Assembly (NCBI RefSeq): GCF_024054195.1
Contig: NZ_JAMXLB010000001.1
Span: 1,079,646-1,143,645, forward strand
Reading direction: 5' to 3'
Origin: Flavobacterium sp. NRK F7
Lineage (GTDB): Bacteria > Bacteroidota > Bacteroidia > Flavobacteriales > Flavobacteriaceae
Length of the DNA stretch: 64,000 nucleotides
Shown here: positions 2,109-42,564 of the stretch, one piece after another
Layout of the letters: every line of letters begins with the position of its first letter
How positions within the stretch are numbered: position 1 is the stretch's first letter
Notes under the pieces: model-generated
Told to the model about the DNA's origin: nothing
What the model saw: the letters and a program-made list of their open reading frames with translations, nothing else
The model's database searches: none
Made by a program: the position numbers and the translations under genes

Positions 2109-2131
2109 TAATTTTTTAGAATAGTAATAAA

Positions 2132-3502: not shown

Positions 3503-3503
3503 A

Positions 3504-4064: not shown

Positions 4065-4116
4065 CAATAGTTATAGTATCGAATTTATTTATTATTTTTG
4101 GTGAAAATTAATTAAA

Positions 4117-4302
4117 ATGAAATATACCAAGTATATTCAATACGTGTACATTCTATTTGCTGTGTTTTTTATCTATGATGCATTTGTAAGATATCAAAAC
4201 AATCAAAGCTTCATAATTAGTATTCTATTTGCGCTTTTAGCCACTTTTATGTTCTTCTTTAAAAGGAGATTTTACAACAAATATAAAAACGGTCAAAAAT
4301 AA
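4117..4302 (+). CDS. Small two-helix membrane protein, unknown function
   Basis: A 61-aa protein with two hydrophobic helices (about residues 9-23 and 32-48) joined by a short polar loop (RYQNNQS) and ending in a basic tail (KRRFYNKYKNGQK), so both ends are probably cytoplasmic. It lies 52 bp after lptC and only 2 bp before the CBS/CorC-type gene, which supports a real gene in the same operon. No family was recognised. Confidence 0.6.
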   Translation: MKYTKYIQYVYILFAVFFIYDAFVRYQNNQSFIISILFALLATFMFFFKRRFYNKYKNGQK

Positions 4303-4304
4303 GT

Positions 4305-5573: not shown

Positions 5574-5669
5574 AGAAATCGTAAAAAATTAATAGAAATT
5601 ATAACTTTTCTGTTTTATTATTAAATAGATAATTGTATTTTCGCCCACTGAATTAAATTAATATACAAA

Positions 5670-7763: not shown

Positions 7764-7786
7764 TAAAGATCTATTTCTTACATACA

Positions 7787-7817
7787 AAAGCCCTTACAAT
7801 CTGTAAGGGCTTTTTTT
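7787..7817 (+). terminator. Intrinsic terminator after the foldase gene
   Basis: The stem AAGCCCTTACA/TGTAAGGGCTT is followed by a T-run, 23 bp after the foldase stop codon. Confidence 0.88.
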
Positions 7818-8069
7818 ATGTCTCAATAGTTTCAATTGAATCGTTGTTTTATCTTTGAATTCATCATTGTTCCAAAAAGAATTAAAACGGCTTACAATCG
7901 CTTTTAAATAACAAATAATGCTATGGTTTGATTGTAATTATAAACAAACATATACAAGTTGTCTTGTTCCTTACTTTATTTGTGTAGTGAAACTGGTATA
8001 TAAAGTGTGTTATTTCTCTTTTCCAATTCAAAGATTCCCTACTCTGAGTCTTCGATTTCGTGAAGTAGC

Positions 8070-8311
8070 GGTACAACAGTTAGACTACTACAGTATGTGA
8101 CGTTGTTTACAAGTGCAAGAAAGCATACTCCTGCAGTATTTTTCAAATATACAAGTGCAAGAAGGTATACTCCTGCAGTATTTTTAAAATTTACAAGTGC
8201 AAGAGAGTATACTCCTACAGTATTTTTAAAATTTACAAGTGCAACAAGGCATATTCCTACTGTAAGTGACATTAGTGACAAGTGTATTAGAGTAGGTTAC
8301 AGTAGTATGTG
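8070..8311 (+). repeat. Tandem repeat array 1 (42-bp A units, then one B unit)
   Basis: Units start at exactly 8108, 8150, 8192 and 8234, each 42 bp and beginning TACAAGTGCAA; the core is CTCCTGCAGTATTTTT. The fourth unit changes halfway to the sequence GTAAGTGACATTAG and is followed at 8276 by one B-type unit (TGACAAGTGTATTAGAGTAG). A degenerate B-like unit precedes the array (8070-8107). Many units can form a small hairpin, ATACT/AGTAT around CCTGC. The same family, with the same A-then-B order, recurs at 21557-21935. Units abut directly, so this is not a CRISPR. The rest of the gene-free stretch 7818-8428 shows only this array and the terminator at 8365. Confidence 0.9.
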
Positions 8312-8362
8312 TCTTAAAAACCATTTACCTTTAGATTAGGTGTTGATGACTCTTTTAAAATA

Positions 8363-8395
8363 ACAAAAGCCACAGTGATGTGGCTTTTTGTTTTT
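8363..8395 (+). terminator. Terminator hairpin following repeat array 1
   Basis: The stem AAAGCCACA/TGTGGCTTT with loop GTGA is followed by a T-rich tract. It lies about 50 bp after the last repeat unit. Its sequence closely matches the hairpin after repeat array 2 (21982-22011), differing by a paired C-G to T-A change. Confidence 0.85.
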
Positions 8396-8408: not shown

Positions 8409-8436
8409 GCACGGAAAACATTTCCGCGCTATCGGG
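8409..8436 (-). repeat. REP-like hairpin element, copy 1
   Basis: Read on the minus strand this is CCCGATAGCGCGGA, a 7-base loop, then TCCGTGC. It is an inverted copy of the element at 9129-9156: arms and the CCCGATA tail are identical, only the loop differs. It supplies the last codons and the TAG stop of the lipoprotein gene at 8429. Confidence 0.85.
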
Positions 8437-9004: not shown

Positions 9005-9143
9005 TTGTTTCTTCTTTAAATATTATTTCTTGTTGAAAATCTTTATCCCAATCTTTTGGAAGAACCTCAATAGGTTTTAAATTGACAAAAGGGCTTGGTA
9101 AAGCTGGATTTTCATCTTGATTGACACTCCCGATAGCGCGGAT
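8991..9143 (-). pseudogene. Orphan C-terminal fragment of a lost gene
   Basis: An open frame of 50 codons without a start codon ends at TAA 8991-8993. It reads through SVNQDENPALPSPFV, then LKPIEVLPKDWDKDF, and ends KEETNEKK. Upstream the frame enters the REP-like element and meets a stop there (9144-9146). It overlaps the lipoprotein start by 14 bases, as a real upstream gene in an operon would. The coding-like composition and coupling suggest the tail of a larger gene whose body was lost when the REP element became the new boundary. The original product cannot be told. Confidence 0.5.
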
Positions 9144-9156
9144 TTATAATCCGTGC
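9129..9156 (+). repeat. REP-like hairpin element, copy 2
   Basis: CCCGATAGCGCGGA, loop TTTATAA, TCCGTGC. The stem GCGCGGA/TCCGTGC has one G-T wobble. It is in opposite orientation to copy 1 at 8409-8436, so the two bracket a block of about 750 bp as inverted ends. Confidence 0.85.
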
Positions 9157-9746: not shown

Positions 9747-10178
9747 TTAATTGTATACGCGTAAAGTGCTTGAGTTTACTTGTTGCACTCGATATTGTTT
9801 CATCGGATATTGCTTACCTTGGGCCTGACCCGTAAAAAAACTATATTCAGCATCATCACAAGCACAAACTGCTTTGATACCATTAATAGTCATGGTAGAA
9901 CATGTGCTTAAAGGTTGGTTTGGGCAAGCCGCATCAAATGCCACATAATTATTACTTCCTGCATTAAAAACAAATACGCCTCTGATTCCAGCAGCGCCAT
10001 TATTGATATAAACCGAATTACTTACAAATTGTAAATTATTATATTCTGGTAAATTCAGATTGATAGTTAAATCAACCGGATAATTTGGTAAATAAGGATT
10101 GTTATTGTTTATTCCATTGTCTTTACTGCAACTTAAAAAAAGTGCGATAAATAAAGAGAAAATCAAGTGTCTTTTCAT
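9747..10178 (-). CDS. Lipoprotein with a Rieske-like fold lacking histidine ligands
   Basis: A 143-aa protein with lipobox FLSC (Cys17). The second half has the layout of a small Rieske domain: FVFNAGSNNYVAFDAACPNQ, a spacer, then AVCACDDAEYSFFTGQ and a KQYRVQQVNSSTLRVYN end strand. A true Rieske centre needs CxH and CxxH. Here the first site reads CPN and the second CACDD, with no histidine in either, so a standard 2Fe-2S cluster is unlikely. A disulfide or structural role is possible. A TAAATTTG box on the minus strand at 10202-10209 may be its promoter. The family link is by pattern only. Confidence 0.55.
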   Translation of the reverse strand: MKRHLIFSLFIALFLSCSKDNGINNNNPYLPNYPVDLTINLNLPEYNNLQFVSNSVYINNGAAGIRGVFVFNAGSNNYVAFDAACPNQPLSTCSTMTINGIKAVCACDDAEYSFFTGQAQGKQYPMKQYRVQQVNSSTLRVYN

Positions 10179-10270
10179 TTTTTAGGATGGATTTTAAATT
10201 TCAAATTTAATTTATTTAATTTTGACTCACTAAAAAACCGTCATAAATTAATTTTAAAAAAAATAATTAT

Positions 10271-10306
10271 TACCTTTGCGTAAAGGAATCCCATCAAATG
10301 GGATTC
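10271..10306 (+). promoter_or_regulatory. greA -7 box and leader hairpin
   Basis: TACCTTTG (10271-10278) fits TAnnTTTG. Directly downstream is a perfect 9-bp stem GAATCCCAT/ATGGGATTC with loop CAA (10286-10306), followed by TTTCTATTT. The hairpin would be at or near the 5' end of the greA mRNA. It may stabilise the RNA or act as an attenuator. Confidence 0.55.
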
Positions 10307-10332
10307 TTTCTATTTATATAAACGATGAAGTT

Positions 10333-10809
10333 ATGAGCACAGTATCTTATTACACAGCAGAAGGATTAAAAAAACTAAGAGAAGAATTAGATCAATTAAA
10401 AAGTATAGAACGTCCAAAAGCATCACAAGCAATTGCGGAAGCGAGAGATAAAGGAGATTTGTCTGAAAATGCGGAATACGATGCCGCAAAAGAAGCACAA
10501 GGTCTTTTAGAAATGAAAATTGCAAAAATGGAAGAATTAGTGGCAAATGCTCGTTTAATTGACGAGTCTCAATTGGATGTTTCCAAAGCTTTGGTGTTAT
10601 CTACCGTTAAAATTAAAAACCAAACGAACGGTATGGAGATGAAATATACTTTAGTTGCAGAAAGTGAAGCAGATTTAAAGTCTGGAAAAATTTCTGTAAC
10701 ATCTCCAATTGGGAAAGGTTTGTTAGGTAAAAAAGTAGGTGAAATTGCCGAAATAAAAGTACCAAATGGAACCTTGAATTTTGAAGTTTTAGAAATTACA
10801 AGAGACTAA
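10333..10809 (+). CDS. greA: Transcription elongation factor GreA
   Basis: GreA binds the RNA polymerase secondary channel and stimulates cleavage of backtracked transcripts. The N-terminal coiled coil (residues 1-75) has the family motif YYTAEGLKKLREELD, and the loop motif ARDKGDLSENAEYDAAKEAQ carries the acidic tip residues Asp and Glu needed for cleavage. The C-terminal FKBP-like domain ends in GTLNFEVLEI. An earlier in-frame ATG at 10276 lies inside the promoter and hairpin, so the ATG at 10333 was chosen; it gives 158 aa, the E. coli length. The HIT gene follows after 3 bp and is surely in the same operon. Confidence 0.95.
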   Translation: MSTVSYYTAEGLKKLREELDQLKSIERPKASQAIAEARDKGDLSENAEYDAAKEAQGLLEMKIAKMEELVANARLIDESQLDVSKALVLSTVKIKNQTNGMEMKYTLVAESEADLKSGKISVTSPIGKGLLGKKVGEIAEIKVPNGTLNFEVLEITRD

Positions 10810-10812
10810 AAT

Positions 10813-11202
10813 ATGGCTTCTATTTTTACAAAAATTATTGAAGGAGAAATCCCCTGTTATAAAATTGCAGAAGATGAAAATTATATTGCTTTTTTAGATG
10901 TGAACCCGAATGCGAAAGGACATACATTATGTGTGCCAAAGCAAGAAATCAATAAGATTTTTGACATGGAAGAAGATTTATATCTGCAATTAATGTCTTT
11001 TTCTAGAAAAGTAGCCAAAGCCATAGAAAAAACAATAGAATGTAAAAGGGTAGGTGTTGCAGTCGTAGGTTTAGAAGTACCTCATGTTCACGTACATTTA
11101 ATTCCTTTACAAGATATGGATGATATGCGTTTTCAAAGAAAAGTAAGCCTTGAAAAAGCTGAATTTGAAAGTGTTGCACAAGCTATAGCAGCTAATTTAT
11201 AA
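10813..11202 (+). CDS. HIT family nucleotide-binding protein
   Basis: A 129-aa histidine triad protein of the HINT/protein kinase C-interacting group, which hydrolyses nucleoside phosphoramidates or similar adenylates. The triad motif HVHVHLIPL lies near residues 95-103, and the N-terminal FTKIIEGEIPCYKI with FLDVNPNAKGHTL is typical. The physiological substrate is not known. It follows greA by 3 bp and ends at a strong bidirectional terminator. Confidence 0.9.
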   Translation: MASIFTKIIEGEIPCYKIAEDENYIAFLDVNPNAKGHTLCVPKQEINKIFDMEEDLYLQLMSFSRKVAKAIEKTIECKRVGVAVVGLEVPHVHVHLIPLQDMDDMRFQRKVSLEKAEFESVAQAIAANL

Positions 11203-11203
11203 T

Positions 11204-11234
11204 AAAAAAATCCCGATTTATTCGGGATTTTTTT
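11204..11234. terminator. Bidirectional terminator
   Basis: The stem AAATCCCGA/TCGGGATTT with a short loop has A-runs on one side and T-runs on the other. It lies between the convergent HIT and histidine kinase genes and can serve both. Confidence 0.88.
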
Positions 11235-11235
11235 A

Positions 11236-12390
11236 TTAGTGATTGGTTTTAAAATAACTCACCTGTATGGTGGTTCCTTTTCCAATTTCTGAGTGTACCA
11301 CTCTGATGTTGCCTTTATGATATTCTTGTACAATTCTTTTCGTTAAGGATAATCCTAAACCCCAACCTCTTTTTTTAGTAGTAAAGCCTGGTTCGAATAT
11401 TTTTGAAAATTGATTTTTAGGAATACCTTTTCCGGTATCGGTTACTCTAATTCGTACTTTGTTTTTATCCTCTGTAATAGAAATATCTAATTTTCCTTTA
11501 CCTTTCATAGCATCAATAGCATTTTTGACTAAATTTTCAATGGTCCAACTGTGTAAAATAGGATTTATTGAAATTTCAATAGGATGTTTAGGTGCGGTAA
11601 ATTGGAAAACCACATGATTCGAAGATCGTGATTTTAAATATTCAAACGAATTTTTAGTTTCTTCTACAATGTCTACCAATTCTAAGACGGGTTCACTACC
11701 AATTTTTGAAAAACGATCTGTAATTGTTTGTAGTCGATTAATATCTTTCTCAATTTCTAAAATGGTTGAAGGCTCGACATTATCTAATTTTAAAATTTCT
11801 AACCAACCAATTAAAGAAGATAGTGGCGTTCCAATTTGATGTGCGGTTTCTTTTGCCATACCTGCCCAAAGTTTATTTTGTGTGGCCATTTTAGTGGCTC
11901 TATAAAAATTATAAACAACGGCTCCAAATAAAATGATAATTAAAACTAACGCAATCGGATAATATTTTAACTTGTTTAATAAGGCCGAATTTCCATAGTA
12001 AATTAAGCGATAATCATCATTAGAAAGATCCATTTTAATCGGTTGATTCTCCGATTTTATTTTTTCAAAGAGCTTTTTTACTTGAATACTGTCATTTTCG
12101 ATTTCGGGATCTAAATTATTACTGTTTAAAATCATACCCTCATTGTTCACTTCTATCATTGGATTGGAACCATTTGCTTGTATAATTTTAAAAGGCAAAC
12201 CAACGTCGGTATCCCCATCAGCATTCGCTAAGGTTTTTTGGGCTGCAACCCAAAGTTCCATTTTTTTTCTTTCATCATTCTTGAAGATTTGAAAAAAAAC
12301 ATAGGTGTTCCATAAAATGACAATAACGATTAAGAAGGAGGCTAAAATGATAAACCAACGGGTTATATTTCTTTTTTCAGAAAATTGCAT
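11236..12390 (-). CDS. Membrane sensor histidine kinase
   Basis: Two TM helices (about residues 9-31 and 143-163) frame a periplasmic sensor region of about 110 residues. The cytoplasmic part has an H-box AKETAHQIGTPLSSLIGWLE (His near 182), an N-box NLVKNAIDAM, G1 DTGKGIP, an F-box FEPGFTTKKRGWGLGLSLTK and a final GKGTTIQVSY strand, so the catalytic parts are complete. The H-box is the HQIGTPLSS form common in flavobacterial orphan kinases. No response regulator is adjacent. An upstream in-frame ATG at 12426 would prefix 12 atypical residues; the ATG at 12390 fits better. The signal is unknown. Confidence 0.88.
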   Translation of the reverse strand: MQFSEKRNITRWFIILASFLIVIVILWNTYVFFQIFKNDERKKMELWVAAQKTLANADGDTDVGLPFKIIQANGSNPMIEVNNEGMILNSNNLDPEIENDSIQVKKLFEKIKSENQPIKMDLSNDDYRLIYYGNSALLNKLKYYPIALVLIIILFGAVVYNFYRATKMATQNKLWAGMAKETAHQIGTPLSSLIGWLEILKLDNVEPSTILEIEKDINRLQTITDRFSKIGSEPVLELVDIVEETKNSFEYLKSRSSNHVVFQFTAPKHPIEISINPILHSWTIENLVKNAIDAMKGKGKLDISITEDKNKVRIRVTDTGKGIPKNQFSKIFEPGFTTKKRGWGLGLSLTKRIVQEYHKGNIRVVHSEIGKGTTIQVSYFKTNH

Positions 12391-12516
12391 ATTTAATATT
12401 TGTAAGTAAAAATAGTAAAATCCCAATCAAGATGATAATGGTCTATAGATAAAACGTAAAATAGATTTAGATATTTTATAAAGAGCTTCTTGTTAAAGAT
12501 ATTCTCCGAAATCCAT

Positions 12517-12546
12517 TTGGGTTGGTCTTAAAAATATGTAAATTTG
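12517..12546 (+). promoter_or_regulatory. Promoter of the flavin reductase gene
   Basis: TTG (12517-12519), 19 bp spacing, TAAATTTG (12539-12546): full match to the Bacteroidota consensus. It lies 18 bp before the start codon. Confidence 0.7.
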
Positions 12547-12564
12547 TAAAAATCTTATTTACGA

Positions 12565-13440
12565 ATGATATCTATTAATCCAAAAGACGTTACACCAGCT
12601 AAATTACAAGGCTATTTGCAAGGAGCTGTAGCACCTAGACCTATTGCGTTTGCAAGTACTATTGATGAAAATGGAAATCCAAATTTATCACCATTTAGTT
12701 TTTTTAATGTTTTTAGTGCCAATCCACCGATATTAATTTTTTCACCAGCAAGAAGAGTACGGGATAATACGATTAAACATACTCTAATTAATGCACATAG
12801 TACAAAAGAAGTAGTGATTAATGTGGTAAATTATGATATAGTGCAGCAAATGTCACTTTCTAGCACCGAATATCCTGATGGTGTGAATGAATTTGAAAAA
12901 GCGGGTTTAACAATGCTTCAATCAGATATAGTAAAGCCTTTTCGAGTAGCAGAAAGTCCCGTGCAATTTGAATGCAAAATAAATGAAATTATAGCATTAG
13001 GAAATGAAGGTGGAGCTGGAAATTTAGTGATTTGTGAAGTGGTAAAAATACATATTGCGGAATCCGTTTTAGATGCAAATGGAGGTATCGATCAGCATAA
13101 GATTGATTTGGTAGCGCGTTGTGGTGGGAATTGGTATTCTAGAGCCAATAGCGGTTTATTTGAAGTTGAAAAACCGCTTTCAACTATGGGAATTGGGGTA
13201 GATGCTATTCCCGAATTTATTAAGAAAAGTACGGTTTTCTCTGGAAATGATTTAGGAATTTTAGGAAATGTCGAAAGTATTCCAAACGAAGAAGAAATTA
13301 CTATCTTTGTAAACGAAAATTTTGGAGTAAAAGCCGTTTTGAGCAGTGATGACGAAATCAAAAAACACGAACTTGCCAAGCAGTATATTGATAAAAATGA
13401 GGTTTTAAACGCTTGGAAAGTATTATTAGCAAATAAATAA
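12565..13440 (+). CDS. Flavin reductase family protein (FMN-binding split barrel)
   Basis: A 291-aa protein whose N-terminal 200 residues match the flavin reductase-like split barrel: GAVAPRPIAFASTIDENG with NLSPFSFFNVFSANPP binds FMN, and a later NLVICEVVKIHIAE strand completes the barrel. Family members reduce flavins with NAD(P)H or act as flavin-dependent oxidoreductases; the partner here is unknown. The last 90 residues (after about 200) form an extra helical tail often seen in this subgroup. The DUF3127 gene follows after 11 bp, suggesting co-transcription. Confidence 0.88.
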   Translation: MISINPKDVTPAKLQGYLQGAVAPRPIAFASTIDENGNPNLSPFSFFNVFSANPPILIFSPARRVRDNTIKHTLINAHSTKEVVINVVNYDIVQQMSLSSTEYPDGVNEFEKAGLTMLQSDIVKPFRVAESPVQFECKINEIIALGNEGGAGNLVICEVVKIHIAESVLDANGGIDQHKIDLVARCGGNWYSRANSGLFEVEKPLSTMGIGVDAIPEFIKKSTVFSGNDLGILGNVESIPNEEEITIFVNENFGVKAVLSSDDEIKKHELAKQYIDKNEVLNAWKVLLANK

Positions 13441-13451
13441 AATTATAAGAA

Positions 13452-13829
13452 ATGGAAGTAACAGGAAGAGTAAAAGTGATTAACCCAGTACAACAGGTTA
13501 GTGCAACATTTAAGAAAAGAGAGTTAGTGGTTACCACAGAAGAACAATATCCACAACATATTATGATTGAGTTTACTCAAGATAAAACAGATTTATTAAA
13601 TAATTATACACCTGGGGAACAAGTTAAAGTTTCTATTAATTTAAGAGGAAGAGAATGGGTAAACCCACAAGGTGAAACTAAATATTTTAATTCTATTCAA
13701 GGTTGGAGAATTGAAAAATTACAACCTGAAGCACCAGTAACTGGGCAAATGCCTCCAATGCCAGCTGCAGATGCTTTTGAACCAGCAACTAATTTTAATG
13801 AAGAAGAACACGACGATCTTCCTTTTTAA
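13452..13829 (+). CDS. DUF3127 domain protein
   Basis: A 125-aa protein of the DUF3127 family common in Bacteroidota. The family core starts MEVTGRVKVINPVQQVSATF and includes KRELVVTTEEQYPQHIMIEF and REWVNPQGETKYFNSIQGWR, which has the look of an OB-fold single-stranded nucleic-acid binder. The C-terminus is a Pro- and acid-rich tail ending EEEHDDLPF, much like the protein-interaction tail of SSB. That similarity is an observation and its function is not established. Confidence 0.85.
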   Translation: MEVTGRVKVINPVQQVSATFKKRELVVTTEEQYPQHIMIEFTQDKTDLLNNYTPGEQVKVSINLRGREWVNPQGETKYFNSIQGWRIEKLQPEAPVTGQMPPMPAADAFEPATNFNEEEHDDLPF

Positions 13830-13850
13830 AAACAATACAATATCAAGTAC

Positions 13851-13892
13851 AAGTCAGAAGTTTTAGTGAACACTATAATTTCTGACTTTTTT
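13851..13892 (+). terminator. Terminator after the DUF3127 gene
   Basis: The stem AAGTCAGAA/TTCTGACTT encloses a loop of about 20 nt and is followed by a T-run. Confidence 0.78.
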
Positions 13893-13924
13893 AATACCAA
13901 ATTTTTAATTTCGAATTTTATAAC

Positions 13925-14581
13925 ATGCATTTTTTAACAAAAGACATTTATTTTCCACCAGTGGAGGAAGCTTCACCTGAAGGTATATTGGCTGTAGGTG
14001 GTGATTTATCCATAGAGCGTCTTTTGCTAGCTTATAAAAGTGGTATTTTTCCTTGGTTTGAAGAGGATGAACCTATTCTTTGGTGGGCACCTGAGGAACG
14101 TATGGTATTGTTTTTTGAAGATTTGAAAATTTCAAAAAGTATGCGAAACGTACTCAATCAAAATAAATTTAAAGTCACATTTAATACGGCTTTTAAAGAA
14201 GTGATTTCCCATTGCAAAAAAATAGTTAGAAAAGACCAACCGGGCACTTGGATTACCAATGAGATGGTGGAAGCCTATTGTAAACTACATGAAATAGGAG
14301 TGGCTAAAAGTGTGGAAGTCTGGTTAAATAATGAATTAGTAGGTGGCTTATATGGTGTCGATTTAGGTCATATCTTTTGTGGTGAAAGTATGTTTTCCAA
14401 AGTTTCCAATGCAAGTAAAGTCGCATTTATTCATTTGGTAAAATTTTTGGAACAAAACAACTATCGCATTTTGGATTGCCAAGTCTATAATGATCATTTA
14501 GCCTCATTAGGTTGTGTGGAAATTGATAGAGATGATTTTATGATGGTTTTGCAACATGGTATATCCAATTTAAAAACGTAG
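13925..14581 (+). CDS. aat: Leucyl/phenylalanyl-tRNA--protein transferase
   Basis: Aat attaches Leu or Phe from tRNA to N-terminal Arg or Lys of proteins, marking them for the ClpS/ClpAP N-end-rule pathway. Motifs are clear: FPPVEEASPEGILAVGGDLS, SGIFPWFEEDEPILWWAPE, GTWITNEMVEAYCKLHE, VGGLYGVDLGHIFCGESMFS and the end motif DCQVYNDHLASLG. The 218-aa length is standard. Its 3' end overlaps that of thiF by 12 bases on the opposite strand. Confidence 0.96.
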   Translation: MHFLTKDIYFPPVEEASPEGILAVGGDLSIERLLLAYKSGIFPWFEEDEPILWWAPEERMVLFFEDLKISKSMRNVLNQNKFKVTFNTAFKEVISHCKKIVRKDQPGTWITNEMVEAYCKLHEIGVAKSVEVWLNNELVGGLYGVDLGHIFCGESMFSKVSNASKVAFIHLVKFLEQNNYRILDCQVYNDHLASLGCVEIDRDDFMMVLQHGISNLKT

Positions 14582-15280
14582 CTTCCTAAATTGCCATTCC
14601 AAAGTATTCAACACAATCAGTTCATTAGTTAAACAAGGTAAATCGGTAATTACTTTTAAGGTTTCATGAGCCATCATTGTACCAATAATACCTGGTAAAG
14701 TACCTAAAACACCGTTCAAGCTACAATTAGGAACGTCTTCTGGATTCGGTGGTTCTGGAAAAATATCTCTAAGATTTTTACTTCCTTTATGATTGAACAC
14801 AGCAACTTGTCCTTCAAATTTTAAAATACTACCATAAACTAATGGCTTTCCTAGTTTTACACAAGTATCGTTTACCAAATAACGCGTCGTAAAATTGTCA
14901 CAACCATCAATCACAATGTCAAAAGAAGCAAGAATAGACTCACAAGTAGCAGTTGTAATTTTTTCATTAAAGACACTATAATTTAGGTTCGGATTTAACT
15001 CTTTCAATAGTTCTAAGGCAATAGTAGCTTTTGGGGAACCAATCTGATTTTCGCGATATAAAATTTGACGGTGTAAATTGGATAATTCAATTACATCAAA
15101 ATCAACAATACCAATTGTCCCTACACCTGATGCTGCTAAATATTGTAAAATAGGACAACCTAAACCACCAGCTCCAATTACTACTACTTTAGCCTTTTTA
15201 ATTTTTTCTTGACCTTCGTTTCCTATTTCAGGAAGTAACATGGGTTTTGTGTAACGTAAATAATCTTCAATTTCAAGCAT
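14570..15280 (-). CDS. thiF: ThiF-type sulfur carrier adenylyltransferase (HesA/MoeB/ThiF)
   Basis: It adenylates the C-terminal Gly of ThiS to prepare it for sulfur transfer in thiazole synthesis. The nucleotide-binding loop VVIGAGGLGCPILQYLAASG, the Arg-finger region ELSNLHRQILY, DGCDNFTTRYLVNDTC and the catalytic-cysteine region PNCSLNGVLGTLPG are present. The 236-aa length is short. The CxxC pairs that hold structural zinc in many MoeB/ThiF proteins are not visible. It is the last gene of the thi operon and lies 5 bp after thiH. Confidence 0.9.
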   Translation of the reverse strand: MLEIEDYLRYTKPMLLPEIGNEGQEKIKKAKVVVIGAGGLGCPILQYLAASGVGTIGIVDFDVIELSNLHRQILYRENQIGSPKATIALELLKELNPNLNYSVFNEKITTATCESILASFDIVIDGCDNFTTRYLVNDTCVKLGKPLVYGSILKFEGQVAVFNHKGSKNLRDIFPEPPNPEDVPNCSLNGVLGTLPGIIGTMMAHETLKVITDLPCLTNELIVLNTLEWQFRKLRF

Positions 15281-15285
15281 AGTTT

Positions 15286-16401
15286 TTAAGAATTATAATT
15301 TGCATCCCAATCTTTCCATACTGGTTCGTATCCTTGTTGTTTGATGATTGCAGCGATTACATCAGCCGAACGTTCGTCACTAGTTTCAAATTGTTCCAAA
15401 GATTGTTTGTCTACACTATAACCACCAGGATTGGTCTTTGAACCTGCGCTCATGGTAGTTGTTCCAATAGGAATAATATGATTTCTGAAATTCTCATTTT
15501 CTCGAGTTGAAATCGAAATTTCTAAATCGGGATTCCAAATGCGATAAGCACAAATTAATTGTGTAAGGTCTTTATCGTGCATAATAAAGTTAGGCTCTAT
15601 TATGCCTTCTGCTGGTCTAAGTCTAGGAAAGGATACCGAATATTTAGTTTGCCAATAGTTTTTCTGTAAATAATCGATATGTAAGGCATTAAAGAAACTA
15701 TCGGTTCGCCAATCTTCCAAACCTAATAATACGCCCAAACCTATTTTATGAATACCCGCTTTTCCAATGCGATCTGGTGTTTCTAAACGAAATTCAAAAT
15801 TTGACTTTTTCCCTTTTGGATGATAGTGCTTGTAGACTTCTTGATGATAGGTTTCTTGGTAAACCAAAACGGTATGTACACCCGCTTGATGCAAACTGAT
15901 ATATTCAGATTCACTAAGTGGCTGTACTTCTACTGAAATAGTAGCAAAATGTTTTTTTATGATTTCTATGGTATTTAAAAAATAGTTGATGTTAACGGTA
16001 TAATTGGCTTCTCCTGTAACCAATAAAACATGATTAAACCCAGCTTTTTTTAACACTTCAATTTCTGCTTTTATTTCCGTATCTGTTAGTGTTTTTCTTT
16101 TTATCTTATTGTCTAAACTGAAACCACAATAGGTACATATATTTTGGCATTCGTTGCTTAAATATAATGGAGCATACATTTGTATGGTTTTTCCAAAGCG
16201 TTGTTTCGTTAGCAAATGACATTTTTGTGCCATAATTTCTAAATATTCAGAAGCTACGGGCGCAATAAGATGCAAGAAATCTGTTAACGTGCATTTCTCT
16301 TTCGAAAGGCTTTTTTCCACATCTGCTGCTGTAGTTTGATATATTTTTTTTTGAATGGTTGCCCAATCATATTGTTTGAATATTTCGTTAAAGGTGCTCA
16401 T
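15286..16401 (-). CDS. thiH: 2-iminoacetate synthase (tyrosine lyase) ThiH
   Basis: This radical SAM enzyme cleaves tyrosine to p-cresol and dehydroglycine, the glycine-derived precursor of the thiazole ring. The cluster motif CxxxCxxC is seen in CQNICTYCGFSLDN (about residues 85-98). Other family segments are MYAPLYLSNEC, NHVLLVTGEANYTV, VLLGLEDWRTDSFF and SFPRLRPAEG. The 371-aa length is standard. The choice of ThiH over the oxygen-dependent ThiO fits an organism able to live at low oxygen. It is in the thi operon, downstream of thiG. Confidence 0.96.
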   Translation of the reverse strand: MSTFNEIFKQYDWATIQKKIYQTTAADVEKSLSKEKCTLTDFLHLIAPVASEYLEIMAQKCHLLTKQRFGKTIQMYAPLYLSNECQNICTYCGFSLDNKIKRKTLTDTEIKAEIEVLKKAGFNHVLLVTGEANYTVNINYFLNTIEIIKKHFATISVEVQPLSESEYISLHQAGVHTVLVYQETYHQEVYKHYHPKGKKSNFEFRLETPDRIGKAGIHKIGLGVLLGLEDWRTDSFFNALHIDYLQKNYWQTKYSVSFPRLRPAEGIIEPNFIMHDKDLTQLICAYRIWNPDLEISISTRENENFRNHIIPIGTTTMSAGSKTNPGGYSVDKQSLEQFETSDERSADVIAAIIKQQGYEPVWKDWDANYNS

Positions 16402-16440
16402 CTGTTTTGGTTTAGAAAAAAGGACTAATTAAGAATGTCT

Positions 16441-17211
16441 TTATTCATTTAAAAAAGCGGTTAAAGGGCTAGAAGCTTGTGCTAAATCAGATACCTGACC
16501 TAACTGCGCCTCATACGCTTTTCTTCCAGCAAATACGGCTTCTTTAAAAGCTTCTGCCATTAATTTTGGGTTTTGTGAAACGGCAATTGCTGTATTTACC
16601 AAAACAGCATCGGCTCCTATTTCCATTGCTTTTGCCGCATCAGATGGGGCGCCAATACCAGCATCAACTATTACGGGTACTTTGCTTTGCTCTATAATAA
16701 TTTCTAAAAAGTCGATTGTTTTTAATCCTTTATTACTCCCAATAGGCGAACCTAAAGGCATAACTGCAGCCGTGCCAGCATTTTCTAAAAGTTTGCATAA
16801 AACGGGATCTGCATGAATATAAGGTAAGACAATAAAACCTTCTTTTGCCAAAACTTCAGTAGCTTTTAGGGTTTCAATAGGGTCAGGTAATAGGTATTTA
16901 GGGTCGGGATGAATTTCTAATTTTAAGATTGAGGTTTCAAATGCATCTCTGGCCAATTGAGCGGCAAGAACTGCCTCTTTAGCATTCCGCGCACCAGAAG
17001 TATTGGGTAACAAATGAATATGTTTATGATTCAGATGAGACAGAATGCTATCAGTTTCAGTTTCAAAATCGACTCTTTTTAAAGCTACAGTGACTAATTC
17101 ACTTTCTGAAGCCAAAATAGCTTCTTCCATTTGTTGGTTGGAACCAAATTTACCCGTTCCTAAAAATAATCGAGAAGTGAAGGAAGTTGTTCCTATTTTA
17201 AATGGTGACAT
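16441..17211 (-). CDS. thiG: Thiazole synthase ThiG
   Basis: ThiG builds thiazole phosphate carboxylate from deoxyxylulose phosphate, dehydroglycine and ThiS thiocarboxylate. Its TIM-barrel motifs are [14 protein letters not shown], the region [12 protein letters not shown] that carries the Schiff-base lysine environment, [33 protein letters not shown] and [20 protein letters not shown]. The 256-aa length is standard. It overlaps thiE by 14 bases, supporting coupled translation. Confidence 0.97.
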
Positions 17212-17821
17212 GTATTTTTTCGTTTAGTGTTGTTATAAGTGATGGGTTTTGGGTAAGTAGACTAGAGATTGCCACCCCATAAAGACCAGTCTCAATTAGT
17301 AAATCGATATCTTCTAAAGTAATACCTCCAATGGCTATTACTGGTATAAAAATGTTTTCTTGTTTCATTCTCTGAAGCAATGTCTGGTAACCTTCTAATC
17401 CTAGAATAGGACTTAGTTTTTGTTTGGTATTAGTAAAACGGAAAGGGCCAAGACCAATATAAGTACAGTTTTCGTGTGTTCTTTGTACTATATGTTCCCA
17501 TGTATTTGCTGTTCCACCAATAATTTTTTGGTTGCCTAAAATATTCCTTGCGGCTTTAATAGGCATATCTTCTAGTCCTAAGTGCACACCGTCTGCATCT
17601 AGTTGATAAGCCAAGTCTACCTTGTCATTAATAATGAAAGTAGCTTCATACGATTGACAAAGAGCTTTGGTTTGTTCTGCAACGGTATAAAAATCTTGTG
17701 CATTGGCATTTTTAAAACGCAATTGAATCCATTTACAACCATGATCCAAAACATTTTTAATGTTTGAAAGTTGTTCTTCTATGGTGTTTCCTTGTGAAAT
17801 ATACTGTAGTTTGTTATGCAT
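17198..17821 (-). CDS. thiE: Thiamine-phosphate synthase ThiE
   Basis: ThiE joins hydroxymethylpyrimidine pyrophosphate and thiazole phosphate to thiamine phosphate. Diagnostic segments are present: [58 protein letters not shown] and [12 protein letters not shown]. The DADGVHLG metal and pyrophosphate motif marks this copy as the true synthase, in contrast to the paralog at 18536. It overlaps thiD by 8 bases and thiG by 14. Confidence 0.94.
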
Positions 17822-18569
17822 AATGATATCCTAATAAAGTGGGATTGGAATTGAGATAGTTTTCAATATATAATTTGGCTTTTTTACAGGAAAAGTATAC
17901 ATCTTCTCCTAAAGCAAGATGTGCGGCAATAGCAGTCGCTAAGACACATCCTGAACCGTGTTTTGGATACAGAACCTTATGGGTTGGTGGTATACTTGTT
18001 TTTTTATTTGCAATGAATAAATCATCTGTACCAGTGTTTGCTTTGTTGTGACCTCCTTTTAAAAGTACAGCACAATAGTCGGATAGGGCTAAAGCTCCGT
18101 TTTCGATACTGTAACCCAACGGAATTAATTTTACAATCTCTTGATAATTCGGTGTAATTATATCTACTTGTTTGAGTATATGGTACAATTGCATTTGGTT
18201 TTCAATCTTTAAAAAGTCGAAAGCTGTACTGGAGCGCAAAACTGTATCCCAAACGATTTTTACTTCTGGAGCCCATTTTTTGCAAGCAAAAATCACTTTT
18301 TCTAAATAGTCTAAAGAAGGCACAATACCAATTTTAACCACTGAAACAGGATAAGTTTCTAAAAGTACATGTATAGATTCCAAAACAAAGTCAAGGGGTA
18401 TCCATGTTGTTTTTACAAAGGTACTTTCGGTTTGAATCGTATTTGCAGTTAAAACGGATAAACCATATACTTGAAGTTGTTCCAATGTTTTAATGTCTGC
18501 TAAAACACCAGCACCTCCAGAAGGATCTAAACCAGCTATGGTAAGTAGGTATGGACGATTTTTTGACAT
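17814..18569 (-). CDS. thiD: Hydroxymethylpyrimidine/phosphomethylpyrimidine kinase
   Basis: ThiD phosphorylates HMP and HMP-P to the pyrophosphate used by ThiE. The ribokinase-like fold is seen in LTIAGLDPSGGAGVLADIKT (substrate and P-loop-like region), WDTVLRSSTAFDF, ITPNYQEI, VLLKGGHNKA and the catalytic GSGCVLATAIAAHLALGE. The 251-aa length fits. Its start lies within the end of the TenI-like gene (34-base overlap). Confidence 0.94.
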   Translation of the reverse strand: MSKNRPYLLTIAGLDPSGGAGVLADIKTLEQLQVYGLSVLTANTIQTESTFVKTTWIPLDFVLESIHVLLETYPVSVVKIGIVPSLDYLEKVIFACKKWAPEVKIVWDTVLRSSTAFDFLKIENQMQLYHILKQVDIITPNYQEIVKLIPLGYSIENGALALSDYCAVLLKGGHNKANTGTDDLFIANKKTSIPPTHKVLYPKHGSGCVLATAIAAHLALGEDVYFSCKKAKLYIENYLNSNPTLLGYHYA

Positions 18570-19129
18570 TTTTTAAAATTTTTAATAGGGTTGGTACTGT
18601 TCCAAATGGAGCCAAGCAAAGCCACGTCATCGAAGCCCTCTGTTAGAGTTGCTGCTATATTTTCGGCTGAAATTCCTCCTAAAGCAATCCATTTAGTTTT
18701 CCAGTTGGTTCGTTCTTTTGTTTGTTCTAAGAGGTTTTGTGTAGGCTTATAATCTACTTTAGAAATACTAGGATAAATCGGACTTATAAAAGCAGCATCG
18801 TATCGTTCGGATAAAAAGTTAAAATCAACTATTGTATGAACAGAAGTTGATAAAAACGGAACTGGTTTTTGAAAGTCATCAGGAATAGAGCGCCTTACTT
18901 TTTCTGTAAAATGTAGCCTTTCCAACTGAAATTCTTCCACTAAATGATGCTGTTGATGCAATACCAATTTAGAATGGTATTTTGGATCAATAGCATTTAT
19001 ATAGAACCGTAATTCTTCTTCGGATGCATCTGGTTTACGAATATGAAACAACTCCAAACCTTCTTCAAAAAGCGCTTGGATTATTTGGTGTTCGTTTACT
19101 ATTTCCGTTGGATTTGAAATTACTATCAT
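18536..19129 (-). CDS. TenI-like thiamine-phosphate-synthase paralog
   Basis: A 197-aa TIM-barrel protein of the ThiE/TenI family. It keeps the fold segments (LELFHIRKPDASEEELRFY, AAFISPIYPSISKVDY, KWIALGGISAENIAATL) but has lost the metal and pyrophosphate motif: where ThiE reads DADGVHLG this protein reads LERLHFTEK, and where ThiE reads GTANTWEH it reads STSVHTIVDF. TenI proteins that lost these residues catalyse aromatization of the thiazole carboxylate tautomer, and this gene sits in the thi operon, so thiazole tautomerase is the likely role. An earlier TTG/ATG context (19165) is possible; ATG 19129 gives the family-like start MIVISNP. Confidence 0.72.
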   Translation of the reverse strand: MIVISNPTEIVNEHQIIQALFEEGLELFHIRKPDASEEELRFYINAIDPKYHSKLVLHQQHHLVEEFQLERLHFTEKVRRSIPDDFQKPVPFLSTSVHTIVDFNFLSERYDAAFISPIYPSISKVDYKPTQNLLEQTKERTNWKTKWIALGGISAENIAATLTEGFDDVALLGSIWNSTNPIKNFKKCQKIVHTYLP

Positions 19130-19210
19130 GATTTTTCTTTTATGAAATCTAAGTTCTCGATACATTTTTTATTCCGTTTCTCTCCATAAAATCACTCGAA
19201 CTGACGATTT

Positions 19211-21037
<1,827 letters not shown>

Positions 21038-21075
21038 TTATTTAGTTGAAAGATTGAAAGATTAAAATAACCCTA

Positions 21076-21282
21076 TTAACCACCTTGAGTAGCAGTAATA
21101 ATTAGTATTGTATCTGTTGGAGAAAGAAAATAATGTTCCCATTGATTTTTGGGTACCACCATTTCGTTTACGGCAATAGCAATGCCGTTTTGTTTCGTAG
21201 GAAGTTCGACATCGATTAATTGTTGAATAGTAATCGATGGGCGATCGAAGGTCTTGTTTTTGTCGTTGATTTTTAATTCCAT
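21076..21282 (-). CDS. thiS: Sulfur carrier protein ThiS
   Basis: A 68-aa ubiquitin-fold protein that carries sulfur as a C-terminal thiocarboxylate to ThiG. It starts MELKINDKN, has the central IAIAVNEMVVPKNQW segment, and ends in the required Gly-Gly (ITATQGG). It is the first gene after the TPP riboswitch. The start codon lies 28 nt after the closing helix of the riboswitch, with AGGA directly before the ATG, so control could act at translation initiation. Confidence 0.94.
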   Translation of the reverse strand: MELKINDKNKTFDRPSITIQQLIDVELPTKQNGIAIAVNEMVVPKNQWEHYFLSPTDTILIITATQGG

Positions 21283-21310
21283 TCCTGAGTGATTTTAGTA
21301 TATAGGTATA

Positions 21311-21440
21311 CTTTAGGAATGGCTGTAACGGTACTAATAAGTACCAAGAAGTCATCTTACTTTTCCCTACGCTAGTATGAACTAGATCAGGTTCAGAGGG
21401 TAAAATCTCAGCCTGTAACATTACAGACACCCCTAAAGTG
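21311..21440 (-). ncRNA. TPP riboswitch (THI element)
   Basis: On the minus strand the hallmark segments of the TPP aptamer appear in order: GGGGTGTC, GGCTGAGA, ACCCTCTGAACCTGATCTAG, GCGTAGGGAAAAGTAAGATG, then the closing strand. The closing P1 helix pairs CTTTAGG (21432-21438 on the reverse strand) with CCTAAAG (21311-21317), a perfect 7 bp. It sits in the 5' leader of thiS and controls the whole thi operon through thiamine pyrophosphate. Confidence 0.95.
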
Positions 21441-21445
21441 TGAAA

Positions 21446-21453
21446 CAAATGTA
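21446..21453 (-). promoter_or_regulatory. -7 box of the thiamin operon
   Basis: TACATTTG on the minus strand fits TAnnTTTG and would start transcription almost exactly at the 5' end of the TPP aptamer. No clear -33 TTG was found. Confidence 0.5.
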
Positions 21454-21556
21454 GTAAAATGAAATGAAAAAAAACTGGAAAACAAAATAAAATAACAAAA
21501 TAGCAGCAAGAGGTTTTATTTGTTTTGTAAGCATTAATTTTAATTTTTTATAGAAT

Positions 21557-21935
21557 TACAAGTGCAACAAGGCATCCTCCTGCAGTATTTTTCAAATATA
21601 CAAGTGTAATAGAGCATATTCCTACAGTATTTTTGAAATATACAAGTGCAATAGAGCATCCTCCTATAGTAAGTGATACTAATTGCAAGTGTATTAATGT
21701 AGGTTACAACTGTATGTGATACTAATTACAAGTGTATTAATGTAGGTTGCAACTGTATGTGATACTAATTACAAGTGTATTAATGTAGGTTGCAACTGTA
21801 TGTGATACTAATTACAAGTGTATTAATTTAGGTTGCAACTGTATGTGATACTAATTACAAGTGTAGTAGAGCAGGTTACAATTGTATGTGATAGTAGTTA
21901 TAAGTGTAGTAGCGTAAATTACTATAGTATATGGA
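21557..21935 (+). repeat. Tandem repeat array 2 (three 42-bp A units, six 43-bp B units)
   Basis: A units start at 21557, 21599 and 21641 (42 bp; TACAAGTGCAACAAGGCATC type). The third switches halfway to GTAAGTGATACTAAT. B units start at 21684, 21727, 21770, 21813, 21856 and 21899 (43 bp; TACAAGTGTATTAATGTAGG then TTGCAACTGTATGTGATAC), the last two more diverged. Adjacent B copies are nearly identical, so expansion looks recent. The same A-to-B switch is found in array 1 at 8070-8311. This array fills the gap between the thi leader and the terminator at 21982; the remaining bases 21454-21556 and 21936-21981 show nothing else. Confidence 0.92.
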
Positions 21936-21981
21936 TAAAAAAATTAACTTTAAAATGTGTTCGTAAGATTGTTTTTTAAAC

Positions 21982-22011
21982 AACAAAAGTCACAATGAAG
22001 TGACTTTTGTT
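21982..22011 (+). terminator. Terminator-like hairpin following repeat array 2
   Basis: A 12-bp stem, AACAAAAGTCAC/GTGACTTTTGTT, encloses loop AATGAA. It is almost the same sequence as the hairpin after array 1 (8363-8395), with a paired change (C-G there, T-A here) that keeps the stem. It could also end the minus-strand FG-GAP gene only if read in reverse from outside that gene, so its natural partner is the repeat array. Confidence 0.75.
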
Positions 22012-22046: not shown

Positions 22047-24050
22047 TTAGTTTTTAATTATTTTTTTAGAGGTGTTGCCTAAGTCTGTTGCAATAGTTAA
22101 AAAGTACATTCCTTTTGCTAAATTAGTTATATCTACTATATTCTTTCCCTTTACGAATGTTCCCTTTTGAATTACTTGTCCGTTTACCGTTATGAGTTCA
22201 TAGATTGCCTCAGTAGTAAGATCTACGTTAAGAATATCGGAAGTTGGATTCGGATATATACCTGTATTCGATAGGATAGGATCTTCCAGCTCTAAAACAT
22301 CATTTAGGCCATATATTTGGGTTCGATTGCCAGCGGCATCTTCCAGAAACAAATAGATGTCAAAAGGGGTGTTTTCAGATAAAGGAGAGATGCTATGGGT
22401 AACGTTTGTATTTTGAATATTCATGGCAAAGTTACCACTTGTAACGGCTCCAGTTCCAGTAAGGATAGTGTTGTAGTTAACGGATGGTGAACTGTGATAC
22501 CATGGAAAAACTGCATAATGAATGGTTCCCGCTTCTGGACCATTTACGACTAAATTAATTGAAGTAGGCGTCCCGTTTTCTGTTTGAGGATAGCCTGAAT
22601 TTAAAGGCTTAATATAATGATCTCCTCCGAAAATTACATAGGATTTTCCTATTTCTGTGGTTGGAGTATAAGGGCTACCTACAACAAAATCCGAGATTCC
22701 ATCTCCATTGACATCTCCATTTCCACTAGCAGGACGCGCAATATTACTCGGGTTTAATCCATTAATAATAAACCCATTTATTCCATTTAAAGTAGATTCG
22801 TTCATTGGATTTGGAAAACCGTTGGCAGTACCAAAAACAATATAAGCTTTACCGTTATTTCCATATACAGAAATGAAATCGTCAATACCATCTAAATTGA
22901 TGTCACCTATGCCAGCAGATGCTAATGTTCCTGGAAGGGTGAAACCCTCAGTTCCATTCAGACTACTTTGAGGAAAATGAGATGGGAAAGGGGTAGTCCT
23001 TCCGAATATTGCATTTGTTTCTGAGAAAAAATCATCAATTCCGTCATTATTAATATCACCTAAAGAGCCTACGAAGGTTAAAAAATTACCGCCATTATTA
23101 TCAATACTAAATCCATCGGTTCCATTTAAAGAGATGAGGTCTACTAAAGGAGAAAAAGGAGATCCTTTACCAAAAAGGCAATAGCTCACAGCAGGATTGC
23201 TGGAATCCCAATTGCCAATAAGAATGTCTTGATAACCGTCATTGTTGATGTCACCAGCAGCACCAACATTGTATGAAGGTCTATCGCCTGGAAAACTACT
23301 TGTTTTAAACCCTTTGGTACCATCCAACCAAGAAGCATCAATAGAAGCGGGGAAGTTACTGGAACGACCAAAAAGAATCCAAGCTTGTCCAGACCAATGT
23401 GGTGTAGCAATAATAAAATCGTTAATTCCATCTCCATTCACATCACCTAAACCCGCAATTTGATTACTTCCAGGGGTGTCGATTAAAAAGCCATTAGTAC
23501 CATTAATGTCATTAATAGTAAGTACCGCAGGAAAAGATGGTTTTCCATAAATGACCATATCGTCTGGAGAAGTACTACTCGAACCAATTATTAGATCATC
23601 AATTCCATCTCCATTAATGTCACCTGGTCCTGCTATTGTTGCCCCACGTCTTTCATCATAGGCAATACCCTTAACTATAAATCCATTCGTTCCGTCTAAA
23701 GTAGTTAAATCAAATGGATTAGGATAAGGAGTACTCGATCCAAAAATAATATAAGCAGCACCTGCATATTGTAAGCCATTTGCAGTTGCAATTTCAGAGC
23801 CAAAAGCCATGTCTTCTAATCCATCGTTGTTGATATCTCCTATAAATTGACTTTCCGCGCCAAATTGTAAATCGGTTGGAAGGCCACTAACTTCAAAGCC
23901 ATTACTGCCATTTAACGAGTTGAGGTTGAAAGTTGCAGGATACAATTGATTTTGAGCTGCTATTTCGGAAATAGGACTGAAAAAACAACTTACTAAAAGG
24001 AGAAAGGTATAATTTGTTTTTTTAAAAATTTTGATCTTTAGTTTTTTCAT
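22047..24050 (-). CDS. FG-GAP repeat protein with T9SS sorting tail
   Basis: A 667-aa secreted protein. After a signal peptide (LLLVSCFFSPISEIAA) come seven FG-GAP/integrin-alpha-like repeats to about residue 470, each with a calcium-loop motif of the type DINGDGIDDLIIG. A beta-rich region (about 475-580) follows, then a type A T9SS sorting domain: NTGIYPNPTSDILNVDL, a GQVIQKGTF turn, and LAKGMYFLTI with a basic end (SKKIIKN). It is probably exported by the type IX system and fixed to the surface. The repeats form a beta-propeller, often used for adhesion; the ligand is unknown. A TAAATTTG box lies upstream at 24078-24085. Confidence 0.9.
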   Translation of the reverse strand: MKKLKIKIFKKTNYTFLLLVSCFFSPISEIAAQNQLYPATFNLNSLNGSNGFEVSGLPTDLQFGAESQFIGDINNDGLEDMAFGSEIATANGLQYAGAAYIIFGSSTPYPNPFDLTTLDGTNGFIVKGIAYDERRGATIAGPGDINGDGIDDLIIGSSSTSPDDMVIYGKPSFPAVLTINDINGTNGFLIDTPGSNQIAGLGDVNGDGINDFIIATPHWSGQAWILFGRSSNFPASIDASWLDGTKGFKTSSFPGDRPSYNVGAAGDINNDGYQDILIGNWDSSNPAVSYCLFGKGSPFSPLVDLISLNGTDGFSIDNNGGNFLTFVGSLGDINNDGIDDFFSETNAIFGRTTPFPSHFPQSSLNGTEGFTLPGTLASAGIGDINLDGIDDFISVYGNNGKAYIVFGTANGFPNPMNESTLNGINGFIINGLNPSNIARPASGNGDVNGDGISDFVVGSPYTPTTEIGKSYVIFGGDHYIKPLNSGYPQTENGTPTSINLVVNGPEAGTIHYAVFPWYHSSPSVNYNTILTGTGAVTSGNFAMNIQNTNVTHSISPLSENTPFDIYLFLEDAAGNRTQIYGLNDVLELEDPILSNTGIYPNPTSDILNVDLTTEAIYELITVNGQVIQKGTFVKGKNIVDITNLAKGMYFLTIATDLGNTSKKIIKN

Positions 24051-34844: not shown

Positions 34845-34911
34845 GTTTTTTAGTTTGCTTTTATTGTTGTGCGTTATTTAATAGCGATATTTTTTACACT
34901 CAAATATATTC

Positions 34912-35571
34912 TTAATTTATCGAAAAAATATAACTTTTTTCATTAAAAACCGTTTTACTAATAATGAGTTCAAAAGTTAGTCTGTTTTTTGTTGCAATAT
35001 TTTTTATCCTTTCAATAGCACAGTCTTCTGACAAAATCATAAACGTATTTTGGAAATTAACTTCATGTTTTAATTGATAAAATAGTTTTTCAAAGTATTC
35101 AAAATTGGCTCCACAGAACCAAGCTTTTTCTGAAGTGTTTTTAGGATTTTTAGGATAGTAAGGCGGATTTATAATGATATAATCAAATGATTTTTCTTCT
35201 ATAGAATCAAATAAATCAGATCTTACACTGGTTACTGAGAGATAGTTCTTTCCAGCATTTTTATTCAAAAAATCGATTGCAATTGGATTAATATCTGATG
35301 CAGTAACTAAAGCTCCTTTTTTTGCTGCGAACAGAGCAATAATACCACTTCCACAGCCTAATTCTAAAAAGGTCTTGCTTTTTAAATCTAGCGTTTGAAT
35401 AAAATCTAATAGTATTTTAGTACTAAATGTTAAATGGGGTGGGAAAACTTTTGGATGAACTTGAATACAAATAGAGTTGTAACAATACTTTCTAGGTTTA
35501 GAATAATACAATTTTAAACCAATTTTAAGAAAAGGATGCACTATTTTTTTAAAGAAACCTCTCATATTCAT
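34912..35571 (-). CDS. Class I SAM methyltransferase (PrmC-like fold)
   Basis: A 219-aa methyltransferase with motif I FLELGCGSGIIALFAAKKG, motif II ASDINPIAIDF and motif IV YIIINPPYYPKNP. The NPPY signature is typical of amino-group (N) methylation, as in HemK/PrmC or rRNA enzymes, and the N-terminal half lacks the PrmC helical domain. An upstream TTG (35595) is possible; the ATG at 35571 is preferred since it begins just after the stop of the upstream gene (35573). It is the last gene of the minus-strand glycan/radical SAM cluster. Substrate unknown. Confidence 0.8.
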   Translation of the reverse strand: MNMRGFFKKIVHPFLKIGLKLYYSKPRKYCYNSICIQVHPKVFPPHLTFSTKILLDFIQTLDLKSKTFLELGCGSGIIALFAAKKGALVTASDINPIAIDFLNKNAGKNYLSVTSVRSDLFDSIEEKSFDYIIINPPYYPKNPKNTSEKAWFCGANFEYFEKLFYQLKHEVNFQNTFMILSEDCAIERIKNIATKNRLTFELIISKTVFNEKSYIFSIN

Positions 35572-35572
35572 T

Positions 35573-38541: not shown

Positions 38542-38614
38542 ACAAGTTTTTTATATAATAAAATCAAACTATTACAAGCAAATATACTTACTGTAATAAA
38601 TAAATACTAATTAT

Positions 38615-41610: not shown

Positions 41611-41632
41611 TATTTTTCTCTACTTATGTTTT

Positions 41633-42559: not shown

Positions 42560-42564
42560 TATAA

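Follow-up and report, generated by a model that had tools for sequence, protein, structure and literature searches.

The tandem repeat at 21558-21933 of the window (the whole stretch of 64,000 nucleotides analysed, C1 1079646-1143645 of genome G000) is probably one locus of a clade-restricted, dispersed and non-coding minisatellite, which would change by slippage or unequal crossing-over and act as a substrate for ectopic recombination. We consider this account the most economical one. Its units stand head to tail and are of similar length, several related arrays are present in the genome and they lie outside protein genes, all of which characterises a satellite family. In the following, this locus is named gamma, alpha is the copy upstream of the window, beta is the array known as cassette 1 and delta is a distant copy made of A units only.

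Architecture of the gamma array

The first-pass annotation of this DNA had described a repeat at 21557-22011 made of three A units then six B units with near-identical neighbours. The repeat is real, as it was recovered by Tandem Repeats Finder, by a second repeat search and in the letters themselves. Tandem Repeats Finder displays a period of 42 with 2.7 copies (21557-21671, score 167) and a period of 43 with 5.6 copies (21669-21908, score 389), and the separate search gave the 42- and 43-base registers again. The units, each of 42 or 43 bp, abut without gaps across the array and start at 21558, 21600, 21642, 21685, 21728, 21771, 21814, 21857 and 21900 (Table 1). The described composition has to be amended, given that only two of the A units are true 42-bp units and that the supposed third one is a 43-bp A/B hybrid forming the junction; of the B units, all five before the partial sixth are complete. 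In the same way, the near-identity of neighbours holds for four of the six B units, B1 to B4 (0-3 differences, B2 and B3 being identical), because B5 differs from them at 8-9 positions.

Table 1. Coordinates of the repeat loci and of neighbouring features (window positions unless C1 is given)
Feature	Position	Strand	Basis or remark
alpha	C1:1076.3-1076.7 kb		just upstream of the window; DNA search, pattern
beta, degenerate left-edge B-like unit	8064..8108	+	lacks the CAAGTG anchor, outside the unit counts
beta array: three 42-bp A units, one hybrid, one B unit	8109..8310	+	
beta tail and hairpin	8311..8393	+	terminator-like on both strands
TPP riboswitch, outside the element, left of gamma	21347..21444	-	RF00059, 75.9 bits
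gamma, two 42-bp A units	21558..21641	+	letters, Tandem Repeats Finder
gamma, 43-bp hybrid junction unit (A-type head, B-type tail)	21642..21684	+	unit alignment
gamma, B1-B4, four near-identical 43-bp units	21685..21856	+	0-3 mutual differences
gamma, B5	21857..21899	+	8-9 differences from B1-B4
gamma, B6, partial, merges into the tail	21900..21933	+	unit alignment
gamma tail, about 48 bases	21934..21981	+	aligns with the cassette 1 and upstream-copy tails, diverged
gamma hairpin, two 12-base arms, 6-base loop	21982..22011	.	terminator-like on +; end of the element
gene with FG-GAP repeats and Por secretion tail, 3' end right of gamma	22047-24050	-	search match
delta, A units only	C1:2355.8-2356.0 kb		DNA search, pattern

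The gamma tail shows an identity of 0.51 and 0.54 to the two other tails of the genome and of 0.92 to its F. profundi orthologue, and the hairpin sits just past the stop codon of the FG-GAP gene. The loops of the gamma hairpin here and in the F. profundi orthologue are reverse complements of each other, as would be expected after a small inversion between the arms. On the other side of the array, the genes behind the TPP riboswitch would be thiamine genes, a label that was assigned by reading translations, as were the guaB-like and ppiD-like labels.

The repeat family within the genome

Searched with the element as DNA query and with a degenerate pattern, the genome shows the family at four intergenic loci, with alpha, beta and gamma at three sites within 25 kb and delta at 1.25 Mb from this cluster. 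The three clustered loci have a common order of A units, hybrid, B units, tail and hairpin, and a hybrid junction unit of the same kind as that of gamma is found in both cassette 1 and the upstream copy. The membership of gamma in the family of cassette 1, already proposed, is hence confirmed by the like hybrid junction unit and by the homologous tail and hairpin. A degenerate left-edge unit is common to alpha and beta, i.e. to two of the three composite loci.

All 16 matches of the exact pattern fell inside the four arrays, and a reversed-pattern control gave 1 match. With up to 2 mismatches allowed, the pattern had 15 matches in the genome (10 places among the matches listed), which equals the count of units with an A head. 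For the hairpin, a pattern with a fixed 6-base loop and up to 2 mismatches, applied to both strands, matched three places of the genome, each beside an array (alpha, beta and gamma). Outside this genome, hairpins of this type are not restricted to the element: among 101 genus genomes, a DNA search returned this genome and four others with hairpin-like pieces of 22-37 bases over the hairpin only, without arrays, a search of 60 relatives returned this genome and one of these four, and one further such place exists in Flavobacterium sp. 9AF.

Another palindrome-like element (CACGGA, 7 bases, TCCGCGCTA) was observed near two of the loci. It forms an inverted pair around a 191-residue orphan gene right of cassette 1, at window 8410-8431 (+) and 9134-9155 (-), and it occurs twice right of alpha (L007 2177-2198 and 2255-2276). 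Stretches similar to it match several places in genome G257, and it looks like a separate REP-like family.

The position of the arrays relative to dnaA was also considered. The single match to the DnaA C-terminal domain is at C1:1794501. The three arrays of the cluster are 0.69-0.72 Mb away from it and delta 0.56 Mb, and all four arrays are oriented towards dnaA. A role as origin or terminus marker was rejected, since these distances show no special position and the orientations are mixed in 9AF.

Other species and unit numbers

Pattern scans of named genomes revealed arrays in F. profundi TP390, Flavobacterium sp. 9AF and Flavobacterium sp. J27, the last of which was reached through its locus alone. 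Among 398 genus genomes, 15 match the A-unit pattern at up to 2 mismatches (3 genomes for the reversed-pattern control); four of them carry arrays, namely this genome, F. profundi and 9AF (recognised by their coordinates) and G257, and 11 have one match each. No tandem arrangement was seen in the six single-match genomes inspected, a set that excludes G134, G315, G318, G378 and G421.

Flanking sequence shows that the loci are orthologous among species, and the number of units was compared, counting anchor-bearing units only, in collections with one genome per species. At the gamma site there are 9 units here, 6 in F. profundi, 3 in 9AF (a hybrid array), 2 in J27 and 5 in G257. Alpha has 5 units here and in F. 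profundi and 4 in both 9AF and J27, with no strong match to the region in G257. Beta has 5 units both here and in F. profundi, and no array is listed at its site in J27, 9AF or G257. Delta has 4 units in each of this genome, F. profundi and J27, with no array listed in 9AF. The 9AF genome bears an additional array of two units. A fixed unit number without any other copies, the outcome against which the first-pass annotation had set its claim, is contradicted, as far as a comparison between species goes, by the variation among the five species at the gamma site, and also by the three further loci of the genome.

The A and B blocks vary separately. Indeed, at alpha the steps are three of 42 bp and one of 43 bp here vs one of 42 bp and three of 43 bp in F. 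profundi. The gamma-orthologous site holds 2 B units in F. profundi and 1 in both 9AF and J27, and G257 has five differently built units. Among these orthologous sites the B1-B4 block with its 0-3 differences is found in this genome alone, which supports the suggestion that the B block has recently expanded. Homogenisation within arrays is slight, with a mean unit identity of 0.766 within arrays, 0.742 between orthologous ones and 0.727 between loci. In two species pairs delta is better preserved than the DNA on either side of it (96.8 and 97.5% vs 91.5%), but in a third it is not (96.8 vs 97.0%).

Rearrangement and apparent exchange at the arrays

The order of blocks in this genome is guaB-like gene, alpha, P (window 1-7816), beta, Q (9748-12420), R (12509-21517), gamma and F. 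The same order is found in F. profundi and, without beta, in J27. The blocks of 9AF follow one another as inverted F, P, R, gamma array, Q, extra array and inverted alpha. The left flank of the 9AF gamma array is 92.2% identical to that of gamma here, and its tail has an identity of 0.78-0.92 to six alpha/beta tails, of 0.73 to the tail of the extra 9AF array and of 0.44 to both gamma tails. Given this gamma left flank and this alpha/beta-type tail, the 9AF gamma array is a hybrid with the joint inside the array. It is followed by about 2.5 kb of other DNA and then by block Q, the one found right of cassette 1 here. In 9AF the P/R joint, the expected place of cassette 1, shows no array, none is listed at the F/P joint of the far inversion, and assembly errors could account for part of the joints of this genome.

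The blocks also differ in their identity, since over R 9AF is 90-96% identical to this genome and over P and Q 82-83%. J27 is likewise more alike over R (85-92%) than over P and Q (84-85%), so that part of the 9AF contrast corresponds to gene conservation and only part may reflect exchange between lineages. The tails of alpha and beta look as if they had been exchanged between the two loci. Over about 51 columns, the alpha tail here is 0.90 identical to the F. profundi beta tail vs 0.82 to its own orthologue, and the beta tail here 0.90 to the J27 alpha tail vs 0.74 to its F. profundi orthologue. At delta, J27 carries 1.75 kb with two open frames where the left edge of the array is here separated from the upstream gene by 83 bp.

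In a post hoc test, which took in only gaps with data on both sides, in which neighbouring broken gaps were counted twice and from which two spurious open frames had been removed beforehand, gene adjacency was broken at 3/3 array gaps vs 6/44 others in F. profundi (p 0.005) and at 3/3 vs 8/40 in 9AF (p 0.013). The enrichment is weak or absent in J27 (2/3 vs 7/46, p 0.08) and G257 (1/2 vs 6/29, p 0.41).

Several further observations were made in these regions. The 436 bases right of the F. profundi alpha array (L036 507-942) are 97.7% identical to a stretch beside the 9AF arrays (L038 7565-8000), which exceeds the identity of the neighbouring blocks and hence suggests a recent exchange between F. 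profundi and 9AF. Between the 9AF gamma array and block Q (L104, contig 1473680-1476140), a regulator-like gene fragment lies between two copies of another palindrome, and the same stretch holds what looks by eye like an Rhs core end whose C-terminal part is altered. Elsewhere in the window, about 12 kb (34854-47168) lack any long nucleotide match to the contig of F. profundi, where about 10 kb of other DNA are found instead; the first 2 kb of this block are present in J27 and 9AF.

Taken as a minisatellite, the element would follow the plan [degenerate left unit] - A units - A/B hybrid - B units - tail - terminator-like hairpin. Whole steps of 42 or 43 bp would be gained or lost, most simply through replication slippage or unequal crossing-over, and new loci would arise by copying of the whole composite, as the junction, the tail and the hairpin are common to the loci. 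Since similar sequence is found at several chromosomal sites, the arrays would recombine with one another and swap tails between loci, and they would end up at the joints of rearrangements and of gene insertions and losses; in both cases the pattern is seen in the sequences and the mechanism is presumed from it.

Coding, RNA and other origins considered

A protein-coding repeat was rejected. Two forward frames do read through the A block as 14-residue repeats, but a 43-bp unit moves the frame, the B units bring a stop into the tyrosine-lysine-cysteine frame that the A units leave open, and in a 94-codon frame over alpha the third codon positions change least; furthermore, the arrays lie between longer open frames. 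The units abut with no spacers, which rejects CRISPR, and in each array all of them have one orientation, which rejects a BIME with its alternating REP palindromes. Alpha used as query had no match among phages and plasmids and the exact A-unit pattern had none in viral contigs, so that a phage, plasmid or viral origin is rejected for these searches.

Transcription of the array into a structured non-coding RNA, with the hairpin as its terminator, was considered as well and appears highly improbable to us. At cassette 1 the hairpin indeed resembles a terminator on either strand and at gamma on the + strand, the gamma stem has been maintained through a paired change of GCC/GGC to GTC/GAC, and minus-strand folding reaches z < -2 in 8 of the 15 arrays. 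On the plus strand, however, this value is reached in just 2 of 15, and for gamma itself, with 80 shuffles each, z is +0.65 on the plus and -1.78 on the minus strand. Sigma-70-like sites number 6 around cassette 1 vs 3.0 (sd 1.9) in shuffles, but 3 vs 4.6 expected at gamma, and the Bacteroidetes promoter motif had 13 matches over the window as a whole but none in the three intergenic regions that were scanned. Moreover, cassette 1 is flanked by two terminator-like hairpins, and no Rfam match over the array reached the gathering score. A structured RNA family was accordingly set aside for want of an Rfam match and of a consistent fold, the mild minus-strand signal being kept as a doubt.

Possible protein binding and gene exchange

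A DNA-level constraint is suggested by the rigid spacing of the units and by the core CAAGTGYA, which is nearly invariant across them. In 67 units from 15 arrays, all 52 interior steps measure 42 (30) or 43 (22) bp, a count restricted to anchors that have another one 42 or 43 bp away; an unfiltered split into units returned the same units in the 14 arrays that it covered. The array edges are looser, with degenerate left units and a last J27 gamma unit with apparent deletions of 1-2 bases, about two bases being lost in that unit. A length of 42 bp corresponds to four turns of the helix. Together, the phasing of the units and their conserved core hint at protein binding, and as a guess, something acting at the DNA level, most plausibly a sequence-specific DNA-binding protein, may also hold the units in shape.

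A more specific form of this idea, which we regard as unlikely, is a phased array of binding sites, where a dimeric DNA-binding protein (nucleoid, partition or regulator type) would bind each half unit of about 21 bp on one face of the helix and where the number of units would tune its occupancy. The half-sites at 21 bp and the absence of any indel in the interior steps are consistent with such an array, and so is the uneven distribution of substitutions over the columns (128 parsimony changes, 32 columns, chi2 81.5 vs a maximum of 70.5 in 20,000 simulations), which persists without the nine anchor columns (23 columns, chi2 40.5, p 0.011). In B units a perfect 10-bp palindrome is often seen at the second half-site. 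The inner pair of this half-site co-varies, being complementary in 49 of 60 distinct units when 40.6 are expected by permutation (p 0.0005, a value overstated by the relatedness of the units); this pair cannot close an RNA hairpin because just two bases separate it. Both tests used 66 of the 67 units (60 distinct), the last J27 gamma unit with its deletion having been dropped. The first half-site, however, is not a full palindrome in most A units, and the recognition of units by the CAAGTG anchor inflates the conservation of this motif at the array edges, where units lacking it exist, although no interior unit was skipped. With the patterns used, the sites are also confined to the arrays, which speaks against a dispersed regulon. 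The possibility that the arrays are recognition sites where a recombinase exchanges small gene cassettes draws on the variable neighbourhood of the loci: the gene right of cassette 1 is absent from all four other stretches and the one right of alpha from two of three, the FG-GAP gene right of gamma did not turn up in the stretches of J27 and 9AF, F. profundi has about 0.6 kb of other DNA left of gamma and J27 its two open frames left of delta. Given that some 9AF joints have no array and that homologous recombination accounts for the hybrids without a dedicated enzyme, we hold such gene capture to be extremely improbable. A combination of both ideas, where the arrays would be phased operators of a clade-confined DNA-binding protein and at the same time preferred exchange points that swap small genes between loci and species, seems quite improbable on the sequences at hand. 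For the minisatellite itself, the data point to no function of the array.

Relation to known repeats and significance

The BIMEs of Escherichia coli consist of REP palindromes in alternating orientation. Like the present family they are intergenic mosaics of more than one unit type with possible protein binding, but here the units of an array all point one way.

Dispersed non-coding satellites are called rare in prokaryotes in PMC6749651, where non-coding satellite families are given for Leptospira interrogans (37-nt, 46-nt and other repeats) and Methanocella conradii (37 nt). Compared by description, these are, like this family, tandem, non-coding and dispersed as several related arrays per genome; they belong to other phyla, and here two unit types in fixed order, a hybrid junction, a tail and a hairpin are found. 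Within the genus, table 2 of the same paper includes Fam_23_69_6 of Flavobacterium psychrophilum, with six satellites of a 69-nt repeat, and the paper relates repeat lengths that are multiples of 3 to protein-gene repeats in most families. By description, Fam_23_69_6 is also a satellite family and differs by this 69-nt, multiple-of-3 repeat. The MIRUs of Mycobacterium tuberculosis, described in PMC3635867 as minisatellites with variable copy number, are likewise minisatellites of varying number, by description, in an unrelated organism, and the variation seen here is between species. The F. psychrophilum VNTRs, tandem and mostly intergenic too, have units of 4-9 bases, vs 42/43 bp here, with a different sequence at each listed locus (PMC4501049). 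No description of this repeat family was found in openly licensed PMC papers, which is no proof of its being unpublished.

The family hence belongs to a known but thinly populated and seldom described class of bacterial DNA. Its five related genomes form a natural series, with shared loci at different unit numbers, unit types typical of each locus, a hybrid array and seemingly exchanged tails, and they thus offer a usable case for studying the spread of such arrays, the pace of their change and their possible role in driving rearrangement. Thanks to the strict helical spacing of the units, a binding protein could be tested for cheaply and, if the combined operator and exchange-point reading were true, the arrays would amount to a chromosomal gene-exchange platform built from a minisatellite.
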